Below, piece after piece: positions 8,453 to 12,718 of a stretch of 64,000 bases of DNA (position 1 is the first letter of the stretch; each line of letters starts with the position of its first letter). Source of the stretch: Vulgatibacter incomptus (GTDB lineage: Bacteria > Myxococcota > Myxococcia > Myxococcales > Vulgatibacteraceae). Made by a program: the position numbers and the translations under genes. The stretch lies in contig NZ_CP012332.1 of NCBI RefSeq assembly GCF_001263175.1, positions 3,349,501 through 3,413,500 on the forward strand, given 5' to 3'. The notes below the pieces were generated by a model, which saw nothing but the letters and a program-made list of their open reading frames with translations, was not told where the DNA came from and did not search any database.

Positions 8453-8914
8453 TCACGCGAGCTTCGACGGTTCGGCGGCGGCGGTCTGCCGGGATCGCTC
8501 CCAGGCGCTCGCAAGCCAGGTGCCTCCGATCATGGACGCCACGAAGACGAACGCGCTGGGCGCACCGGTGGCGAGCGACACGAGACCCGGGCCCGGGCAG
8601 TAGCCGCCGAGGCCCCAGCCGATCCCGAAGATCGCGGCGCCGCCGATCAGCCGTGCGTCGAGGTCGCGCCGGGTAGGCAGATTGAAGTCGCCTGCGCAGA
8701 TCGGCGCCTCTCGGCGGCGGACGATCCGCCAGGTGATCGCGGACACGCCGACGGCGCCGGCCATCACGAAGCCCAGCGCGGGCTTCCACTCGCCGGCGAA
8801 GTCGAGGAAGCCGATCACGTTCCCCGGCTCGGTCATTCCTCCCACGGCCAGGCCCAGGGCGAAGAGCAAGCCGGCGACGAAAGCGACGAACCCCTGCATC
8901 CCGATCGTCTTCAT
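8453..8914 (-). CDS. YeeE/YedE-type sulfur transporter, C-terminal half (DUF6691-like)
   Basis: 153 residues with about four membrane segments. It matches the second half of a YeeE/YedE transporter, a family known for moving thiosulfate or related sulfur compounds. Motifs are [18 protein letters not shown] and [19 protein letters not shown], the latter carrying the conserved Cys of the GxCPGP loop. The start overlaps the end of the upstream half-gene (ATGA), so both halves should be made together and probably pair in the membrane. Transcription probably starts at the sigma-54 site at 9394-9379. Confidence 0.9.
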
Positions 8915-9336
8915 TCCAGTCCTCCCACGAGACGCACCACCAGCACGCTCAGCGCGCCGGTCGCCATGAAGGTGAGGGTCGCGACGATGGAGCGCGGCGA
9001 GAGCCGGCTGATGCCGCAGACGCCGTGACCGCTGGTGCAGCCGCTGCCGAGACGCGTCCCGATTCCCACGAGCGCACCCGCGATCGCAACGAGGGGGAGC
9101 GAGGGCGCGGCACTCGCATCGAAGCGCCCCGGCATCGCGGCATACGCGACCGCGCCGCCAACCACGAGGCCGGCCACGAAGAGCGCGCGCCAAATCTTGC
9201 CGGGCTGACGCGAGACCAGGCCGCCCAGGATCCCGCTGATCCCGGCGACCCTGCCGTTGAAGAGCAGCAGGAGCGACGCGCTCACGCCGATCAGGACGCC
9301 GCCGCCCAGTGCCCACTTGATCGAAATCCAATCCAT
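8911..9336 (-). CDS. YeeE/YedE-type sulfur transporter, N-terminal half
   Basis: 141 residues, about four membrane segments. It carries the family motif [20 protein letters not shown] with the Cys residues known in YeeE to relay thiosulfate sulfur. Together with the downstream gene it makes up a split transporter. The leader contains AAGGAG about 12 bases before the ATG. A sigma-54 promoter matching the consensus lies 32 bases upstream of that leader start. The context, with a persulfide dioxygenase, TauE and a FisR-like activator, suggests uptake of sulfur compounds under control of sulfane sulfur. Confidence 0.92.
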
Positions 9337-9378
9337 CCGAACGAAGTCTCCTTGTTGCAGGAACAGTCTTGGCTCCCT

Positions 9379-9394
9379 CGCAATCCCCGTGCCA
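9379..9394 (-). promoter_or_regulatory. Sigma-54 promoter for the YeeE/YedE pair
   Basis: The minus strand reads TGGCACGGGGATTGCG. It has the GG and GC dinucleotides with exactly ten bases between them and matches TGGCACG-N4-TTGC at every defined base. The predicted start site is near 9368, leaving a 32-base leader before the ATG at 9336. Confidence 0.85.
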
Positions 9395-9457
9395 ACGGTG
9401 GTGGAGCGAGATCTCGCGAAGGTAACGGCGCGCCGCGCCCGGAGGCCGTTTCACCCC

Positions 9458-9485
9458 TGTTCTACGCGTTTCGGCGCGAGCAACA
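9458..9485. promoter_or_regulatory. Candidate activator-binding dyad between divergent sulfur genes
   Basis: Dyad-symmetric sequence of the form TGTT-N3-CGCG-N6-CGCG-N3-AACA. Its centre is about 105 bases upstream of the predicted start for the YeeE/YedE pair and about 135 bases upstream of that for tauE, the usual distance for a sigma-54 activator site. Four GTTTC words also lie nearby (9448, 9468, 9491, 9501). Binding by the activator encoded at 11348 is inference. Confidence 0.45.
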
Positions 9486-10566: not shown

Positions 10567-10579
10567 CTGGGTCGAACGC

Positions 10580-10595
10580 TGGCACCGCTGTTGCT
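10580..10595 (+). promoter_or_regulatory. Sigma-54 promoter for the dioxygenase-activator operon
   Basis: Reads TGGCACCGCTGTTGCT, with canonical GG-N10-GC spacing. The predicted start is near 10606, giving a 33-base leader that holds the palindrome GTTTCGAAAC (10609-10618) and a GAGAGGAG ribosome-binding site. Upstream, GCAACA at 10513 and GAAAC words at 10501 and 10522 echo sequences in the divergent region. Confidence 0.85.
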
Positions 10596-10638
10596 TTCGA
10601 GAAACTTCGTTTCGAAACGCTCGAGAGGAGTCCCCCCG

Positions 10639-11361
10639 ATGTTGTTCCGACAGTTGTTCGACCCCGAGAGCTCCACCTACACCTACCTCCTCGCGGACGA
10701 AGCGACCGGCGAGGCCGTGATCATCGACCCGGTGCTCGAGCAGGCCGAGCGCGACCTCGCGCTGATCGAGGCGCTCGGCCTGAAGCTAGTCTATGTCATC
10801 GACACCCACGTCCACGCCGACCACATCACGGCGTCGGACCTCCTCCGCAAGCGCACCGGCTGCACGACCATCCTCTCCGAGAAGGCTGGCGTGGAATGCG
10901 CCGATCGCCCGGTCAAGGACGGCGATCGGATCCGCTTCGGCTCCCAGGAGCTGGAGGTCCTGGAGACGCCCGGGCACACCTCCGGCTGCCTGAGCTTCGT
11001 CACGGGTGATCGCGCGATGGCCTTCACCGGAGACGCGCTGCTGATCGGCGGCACGGGCCGCACCGACTTTCAGCAGGGCGACGCCCACCAGCTCTACCGC
11101 TCGATCACGGAGAAGCTCTTCCGTCTCCCCGAGTCGACCGTCGTCTATCCGGGCCACGACTACAAAGGGAGGACCGCCAGCACCATCGGCGACGAGAAGC
11201 GCCTGAATCCCAGGCTGGGACAAGGCAAGACCGAGGAGGACTTCGTCGAGATCATGGCCAACCTCGGCCTCCCCTACCCGAAGAAGATCGACGCGGCGCT
11301 CCCTGCCAACCTCCGCTGCGGATCCGCTCAGGCCCCGTCGATGGAGCATGTCGATTCCTGA
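10639..11361 (+). CDS. Persulfide dioxygenase-like metallo-beta-lactamase (ETHE1 type)
   Basis: 240 residues. It has the metal-binding motif THVHADH at 56-62, then [26 protein letters not shown] and [19 protein letters not shown]. These are the ETHE1-type signatures of mononuclear iron enzymes that oxidise glutathione persulfide to sulfite. The ATG at 10639 follows GAGAGGAG. A TauE exporter upstream could remove the sulfite formed, and a YeeE/YedE pair nearby handles sulfur compounds. The last 14 bases overlap the sigma-54 activator gene, so enzyme and regulator should be co-expressed. No fused rhodanese domain is present. Confidence 0.93.
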
Positions 11362-12718
11362 CGTGTCCTCCGCTCCTGAAACGACTCGAACCTTGATGAA
11401 CGACGAGCCGCTCATGTTGGCCGCCCTCGAGGATCTCGCAGGGCCCGCCCTGATTCTCGACGAGAAGCTCCGGGTGGTGCGCGCCACCGAGTCCGCCGAA
11501 GACCTCGTAGGGACCTCGCTTCCCAGCGGCGTGAACGCGGCCAAACTCCTCTGTGGAGGAGCGACGAACCGGCCCATCGCCGAGGCGTTGGCAAAGGGAG
11601 TTCCGGTCACGGGCACGGTCGAGCGCCCCTACCGTGGCGGGCGCGCCCGATCGATCGTGATCCGCGCTACGCCAGTCATGCGCGACGGGAGGCGGCTCGG
11701 CTGGGTGCTCGCGCTCGAGGCGCAGGGCGGCGCCGTCGGGGAGCCGGATGGCCCCGTCTTGTTTCACGGTCTCTGGACCCGCGACCCGGCCATGAAGCAG
11801 GCGTTTCACGTGATCGAGCGGGCCGCGGGCCGGGACGTCACCGTGCTGGTCCGCGGCGAGACCGGGACGGGAAAGGAGCTGGTGGCCCGGGCGCTCCACG
11901 AGCTCTCGCCCCGCCGCGACGGCCGGTTCGCCGCGATCAACTGCGCGGCGCTCCCCGCCACCCTCCTCGAGAGCGAGCTCTTCGGACATGTGAGAGGTGC
12001 CTTCACTGGCGCGGTCCGTGATTCTCCCGGCTTCTTCCGCAGCGCCCACGGCGGGACCGTGTTCCTGGACGAGGTGGCGGAGATGCCGCTGGAGCTCCAG
12101 GCGAAGCTCCTCCGCGTGCTCGAGACACGGACCGTGATCCCGGTGGGCGGGCGGGAGCCGCTCCCGGTGGACGTGCGGATCGTCTCCGCCACGCACCAGT
12201 CGCTCCGCATGGCGGTGGAGCAGGGGCGCTTCCGCTCCGACCTGATGTTCCGGCTCCGGGTGATCCCCATCTTCCTGCCGCCGCTGCGCCAGCGCGTGGA
12301 GGACGTAGGGCTGATCGCCCAGAAGATCGTCGAGGACCTGAACGCCCAGGGCGGGCGGCGGGTCTCCCGCATCGCGCCTGGCGCGATGACCGCGTTGGAG
12401 CGCCACCCCTGGCCGGGGAACGTACGGGAGCTGCGCAACGCGCTGGAGTACGCGTTCGTCATCGGCGAAGGGCCGATCCTCCAGCCGGGCGATCTGCCGG
12501 TGGAGATCCTCGAGCCCGGCGCGAGCCTCGGATTGGCCGGGGGCGCGCGAGCGAACGTTCCCCCGCCTCCGACCGCCGAGGAGCCACCGGAGATTGCGCG
12601 CATCCGCCGCGCCCTGGAGCGCGCCGGCGGCCACCGCGAGCGCGCCGCTCAAATCCTCGGGATCAGCCGGGTCACCCTCTGGCGGCGGATGCGCGAGCTG
12701 GGCATCGAATCCACCTGA
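11348..12718 (+). CDS. Sigma-54-dependent transcriptional activator, FisR-like
   Basis: 456 residues. Residues 25-130 form a PAS-like sensing region with a single Cys in [11 protein letters not shown] (Cys69). An AAA+ domain follows with Walker A GETGTGKE (170-177) and the sigma-54 contact loop GAFTGA (217-222). A C-terminal Fis-type helix-turn-helix ([20 protein letters not shown]) ends the protein. In other bacteria FisR activates persulfide oxidation genes in response to sulfane sulfur. Here the gene overlaps such a gene by 14 bases, and sigma-54 promoters lie in front of the nearby sulfur genes. It probably activates them and itself. FisR uses several sensor cysteines; only one is visible here, so the signal may differ. 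Confidence 0.93.

Follow-up and report, generated by a model that had tools for sequence, protein, structure and literature searches.

The locus described here lies in the single genome (4,350,553 bases) of the soil myxobacterium Vulgatibacter incomptus, within an analysed stretch of 64,000 nucleotides (hereafter the window), and very probably represents a FisR-type persulfide/sulfane-sulfur response module. Judged from its sequence, it is well supported as a variant of the known FisR circuit, in which a YeeE/YedE transporter appears to have been added, a sulfide oxidase is lacking and the sensor is without the usual cysteines. By way of three predicted sigma-54 promoters and a repeated GTTTC box, one activator probably co-induces a persulfide dioxygenase, a sulfite exporter and a transporter of sulfur compounds. 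The component genes are as follows:

8453-8914, minus strand: yedE-like half of a split YeeE/YedE transporter (DUF6691; Pfam DUF6691, E 8.7e-44)
8911-9336, minus strand: yeeE-like half of the transporter (Pfam Sulf_transp, E 1.4e-9)
9610-10566, plus strand: tauE, TauE/SafE (TSUP) sulfite exporter (Pfam TauE, E 5e-48)
10639-11361, plus strand: pdo, ETHE1/MxPDO1-type persulfide dioxygenase (phmmer matches, solved relatives)
11348-12718, plus strand: FisR-type enhancer-binding activator with a PAS sensor, a sigma-54 AAA+ domain and a Fis HTH (Pfam)

Pfam matches and solved relatives bear out the gene list of the initial annotation, i.e., a split YeeE/YedE transporter, TauE, a persulfide dioxygenase and an activator. 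The yeeE half matches the solved thiosulfate transporter YeeE/TsuA, and the two halves contain the cysteine motifs GCTSGHG and GYCPGPG that mark YeeE/YedE transporters; their reading frames share 4 bases, so that co-transcription is probable. The yeeE-yedE pair is divergent from tauE. The pdo product exhibits a metallo-beta-lactamase fold (Pfam) and, by phmmer, matches persulfide dioxygenases of solved structure from end to end (BpPRF, 4e-88; 4ysb, 3e-86; ETHE1 4chl, 5e-80). The activator gene, whose start overlaps pdo by 14 bases, is located behind pdo as the last gene of the locus. An rpoN gene is present in the genome; two genes encode a sigma-54 DNA-binding domain (G000:C1:3093913-3094383 and G000:C1:2078499-2078975), one match being strong (201 bits) and the other weaker (108 bits), and this pair possibly includes a second RpoN.

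Three candidate promoters precede these genes:

9379-9395, minus strand: candidate sigma-54 promoter of yeeE-yedE, TTGGCACGGGGATTGCG (18 bits, the top site of the window; predicted leader 32 nt)
9579-9595, plus strand: candidate sigma-54 promoter of tauE, TTGGCACGGAGGTCGCA (16.4 bits; predicted leader 4 nt)
10579-10595, plus strand: candidate sigma-54 promoter of pdo, CTGGCACCGCTGTTGCT (15.9 bits; predicted leader 33 nt)

All three sigma-54-like sites are located at the positions and on the strands where they had been proposed, and the leaders of yeeE and pdo are of the lengths given for them then, while the 4-nt leader of tauE had gone unmentioned. The yeeE and pdo sites had been described as perfect, and indeed they fully match TGGCAC-N5-TTGC, but each departs by one mismatch from the longer consensus TGGCACG-N4-TTGCW, as does the tauE site. 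A loose search of the window, allowing two mismatches to the consensus, returned 8 matches against 5.8 expected, which is not significant and is what chance matches in GC-rich DNA would yield. According to an approximate weight matrix, built from the Barrios consensus, the three sites occupy ranks one to three in the 64-kb window, with three sites of at least 15.8 bits observed against 0.12 expected in shuffled sequences. Across all 4.35 Mb of the genome there are seven matches to the pattern YTGGCAC-N5-TYGC (and 12 to a reversed control pattern), and three of the seven lie within 1.2 kb in this locus; two of the remaining four were examined, and both appear to sit inside genes. This genome-wide rarity and clustering, together with the conservation of the pdo site in relatives and the co-occurring GTTTC boxes described below, support the sigma-54 promoter reading originally put forward and render chance matches extremely improbable, an explanation already contradicted by the comparative sequence data. 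A further sigma-54-like site of the window, CTGGCAGGGGTGTTGCT (16524-16540, 14.6 bits), is located inside an open reading frame and is probably due to chance.

Of 195 Myxococcota genomes, 50 (counting the window genome) possess an orthologue of the activator, with identities of 53-58%, two of the 50 matching over the AAA+ and HTH part only. The usual gene order in the orthologous loci is sqr, activator, pdo, rhodanese, tauE. Conservation of the promoters in relatives had been named as a check on the initial proposal, and a GG-N10-GC site with invariant GG and GC is present at most 150 bp upstream of all 44 orthologous pdo genes, although most of these loci belong to one family and are therefore not independent. 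Most sqr genes in the orthologous loci also carry a sigma-54 site. A scan of genome contigs located the module, among the matches listed, only in locus L211.

The predicted leaders of the pdo orthologues (n=44) range from 2 to 40 nt, with 2-3 nt in eight cases, and the geometry of tauE is similarly short in L211 and L034, the L034 site being weak at 8.8 bits. Because short leaders recur in this manner, the 4-nt leader of tauE in the window is no ground for dismissing its site, and mRNAs initiated from such close sigma-54 sites would be nearly leaderless. Sites leaving a leader of approximately 1-6 bases were observed in the window (9579-9610) and in L116, L107, L121, L147, L211 and L034, several of them belonging to tauE genes.

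A second type of element, the GTTTC/GAAAC box, had been overlooked in the initial annotation and is present (no strand assigned) at the following positions:

9448-9553: five GTTTC/GAAAC boxes (9448, 9468, 9491, 9501, 9549) in the stretch that separates the divergent promoters of yeeE and tauE, a proposed activator-binding enhancer
10501-10526: two GAAAC boxes (10501, 10522), which precede the pdo sigma-54 site by 78 and 57 bases
10601-10618: three more GAAAC/GTTTC copies, downstream of the pdo promoter elements

De novo word counting identified GTTTCA upstream of pdo in 43 of 43 regions, against 2.6 expected, ranking it next to the sigma-54 words, and the density of GTTTC/GAAAC amounts to 17.3 per kb upstream of pdo compared to 0.67 per kb elsewhere. 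Neighbouring copies are often separated by 9-13 bases, close to one turn of the helix, and they lie some 50-190 bases ahead of the promoter; clusters of at least three boxes are present in 48 of 49 FisR-type loci. In the window, the yeeE-tauE intergenic region contains five boxes in 179 bp where 0.2 would be expected, and 60-bp stretches with at least three boxes occur only at the yeeE/tauE and pdo promoter regions. The same GTTTC box is found between fisR and pdo in Acinetobacter baumannii, where the boxes lie beside TTGGCATCTTATTTGCA, and in Acinetobacter junii. Furthermore, related activators of Anaeromyxobacter-like genomes (L038-L049) are flanked by GTTTC/GAAAC clusters yet have no pdo, tauE or yeeE neighbours, indicating that the box goes with this clade of activators and not with sulfur metabolism as such. 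The clusters probably constitute the enhancer to which the activator would bind. At the scale of the genome, a pattern of three tandem GTTTC copies gave no matches, while a two-copy pattern gave 59 against 29 for its control and is too noisy for extending the regulon.

The FisR protein of A. baumannii has been shown by means of a mutant to activate pdo1-sqr-tauE-hsd (PMC7315123), and the A. baumannii locus retrieved here (L194) reproduces the published fisR / pdo1-sqr-tauE-hsd gene order. When this FisR was used as a query, the window activator was the best match in the genome, with 285 bits versus 243 for the next of approximately 20 activators. The two proteins are 50% identical in the AAA+ domain, while their sensor domains share almost no sequence. 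The activator had been called FisR-like, which is consistent with its being the best match of a proven FisR, with its architecture and with the adjacent pdo gene and sigma-54 site, but there is no conservation of the cysteines described for Cupriavidus FisR. Possessing FisR-like traits without conserved sensor cysteines, the activator would work like FisR and is thus best filed with the Acinetobacter type. In a survey of plasmid records, which covered annotated loci (L323, L324 and L330, being without annotation, were left out), activator/pdo loci other than the FisR loci of A. baumannii and A. junii did not represent FisR loci. The A. junii locus (L203), on plasmid pA from mining soil, comprises fisR, pdo, an sqr fusion, tauE and cytochrome bd genes, as well as a strong sigma-54 site.

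Assignment of the activator's sensor to the PAS fold is of modest confidence, being based on a weak Pfam hit and on a two-sequence AlphaFold model (pLDDT 71). Foldseek matches to this model are nearly all PAS-family domains, the nearest solved structures including the redox/FAD PAS domains of MmoS and NifL. The window sensor possesses a single cysteine, C69, which it shares with L211. Alignment of the sensors reveals no conserved cysteine column, and cysteines are absent or unconserved in most orthologues; 24 of 50 sequences, that of A. baumannii FisR included, contain none at all. As the cysteines reported for FisR are absent, the identity of the inducer amounts to a guess, and the circuit may operate as described with a PAS domain that has a different small molecule or cofactor as its ligand (redox, flavin, haem or a metabolite) instead of reacting with sulfane sulfur on cysteines, the sulfur genes being mere targets. 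The lack of a conserved sensor cysteine in this clade, the absence of any in A. baumannii FisR and the structural matches to MmoS and NifL would all suit such a sensor. However, the targets are throughout genes for persulfide and sulfite handling, the equally cysteine-free FisR of A. baumannii answers to added sulfide (PMC7315123), and in L170, a related regulator whose locus shows these boxes too, the equivalent PAS loop region contains four cysteines; given also the modest confidence of the PAS model, a different inducer is considered rather unlikely, although a real possibility. How FisR might sense persulfide without regulatory cysteines was raised as unexplained by the authors of the A. 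baumannii study (PMC7315123).

The initial annotation had presented control of both YeeE/YedE and TauE by FisR and sigma-54 as new. For TauE such control has already been published for A. baumannii (PMC7315123), and only that of YeeE/YedE is therefore new; a literature search of limited reach returned no report of the latter. In A. baumannii, YeeE/YedE is a target of BigR and not of FisR (PMC7315123), and in most Myxococcaceae-like genomes yeeE-yedE is located elsewhere, often with a second pdo-tauE set, and lacks sigma-54 sites. These observations would suit an arrangement in which sigma-54 control by the activator extends no further than tauE and pdo (with the activator gene itself), while yeeE-yedE answers to another promoter or regulator, e.g., a BigR/SqrR-type repressor, and the 9379-9395 site is weak or silent. 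Such an arrangement is improbable, however, since no other site in the window scores as high as that of yeeE, which leaves a 32-nt leader, yeeE and tauE share the five-box cluster, neither the locus genes nor the genes directly next to them include an ArsR-family (BigR-type) repressor, and five other genomes also have yeeE-yedE in a FisR-type locus (L134, L143 and L146, where it follows tauE, as well as L211 and L170). In L211, for example, tauE-yeeE-yedE is located behind boxes and a sigma-54 site. The coupling of YeeE/YedE to FisR is thus recurrent but not general, and FisR control of this transporter is predicted to be limited to a minority of lineages. In many Myxococcaceae-like genomes (L090, L092, L099, L104 and L150-L154) a second pdo-rhodanese-tauE set is divergent from yeeE-yedE and has no sigma-54 sites, while in L166 (5429-7312) divergent tauE and yeeE-yedE genes exhibit weaker sigma-54-like sites in both directions, with no FisR gene in the 13 kb covered there.

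The loci of relatives do contain sqr, and an SQR is among the expected companions of FisR; a search of the window genome with a myxobacterial SQR returned only partial matches of 34%, i.e., no recognisable SQR of that type. The module would consequently handle persulfide derived from sources other than sulfide oxidation.

In the circuit proposed here, the activator (11348-12718) would bind the GTTTC boxes that lie between yeeE and tauE and ahead of pdo, its PAS domain would sense a reactive sulfur signal, presumably sulfane sulfur, and the activator would then remodel sigma-54 RNA polymerase at the three promoters. The persulfide dioxygenase thus induced would convert persulfide to sulfite, TauE would export sulfite, and the split YeeE/YedE would move thiosulfate or another sulfur compound, the direction being presumed for both transporters; read-through from pdo may place the activator under its own control. 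Somewhat short of an even chance, and therefore offered tentatively, is the broader proposal that one branch of FisR regulators, represented in both Acinetobacter and Myxococcota, needs no sensor cysteines to detect reactive sulfur, recognises GTTTCA as a common enhancer and has captured YeeE/YedE in several lineages. The resulting sulfane-sulfur response would be built on the transport of sulfur compounds and the oxidation of persulfide, with no sulfide oxidation step, and would be expressed in part from near-leaderless sigma-54 mRNAs. The locus would extend FisR control to a sulfur transporter, provides in GTTTC a testable FisR DNA box shared by Acinetobacter and myxobacteria, and brings into sharper focus the question posed in the A. 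baumannii study (PMC7315123). For this question of cysteine-free sensing the Myxococcota sensors offer a natural series, which ranges from the cysteine-rich L170 by way of the single-cysteine proteins of the window and L211 to those with none.

Among known systems, the FisR of Cupriavidus has been described as a sulfane-sulfur-sensing activator of pdo-sqr with three regulatory cysteines (as cited in PMC7315123). Sigma-54 activation of persulfide dioxygenase genes is common to that system and, as a prediction, to the window, whereas the cysteines are not conserved, a comparison made with the description of Cupriavidus FisR and not with its sequence. BigR is an ArsR-type repressor first found in Serratia, which in A. 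baumannii governs the operon yeeE-yedE-pdo2 (PMC7315123); its cargo of split YeeE/YedE and a persulfide dioxygenase is nearly the same as that of the window, where the ArsR-type repressor has no counterpart in the locus. The Myxococcaceae-like sqr-activator-pdo-rhodanese-tauE loci (L031-L033, L035, L106-L147) share with the window the orthologous activator, pdo, tauE, sigma-54 sites and GTTTC boxes; they differ in carrying sqr and rhodanese genes, and only L134, L143 and L146 among them include yeeE-yedE. Finally, the A. baumannii FisR regulon has in common with the window a sensor of the cysteine-free type, the AAA+ domain and Fis HTH, pdo, TauE, a sigma-54 site before pdo and GTTTC boxes between activator and promoter. 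It includes sqr and hsd and leaves YeeE/YedE to BigR, while the window is distinguished by the missing sqr, by an activator gene placed last behind pdo, and by a yeeE-yedE pair that is divergent from tauE and has a candidate sigma-54 site of its own.
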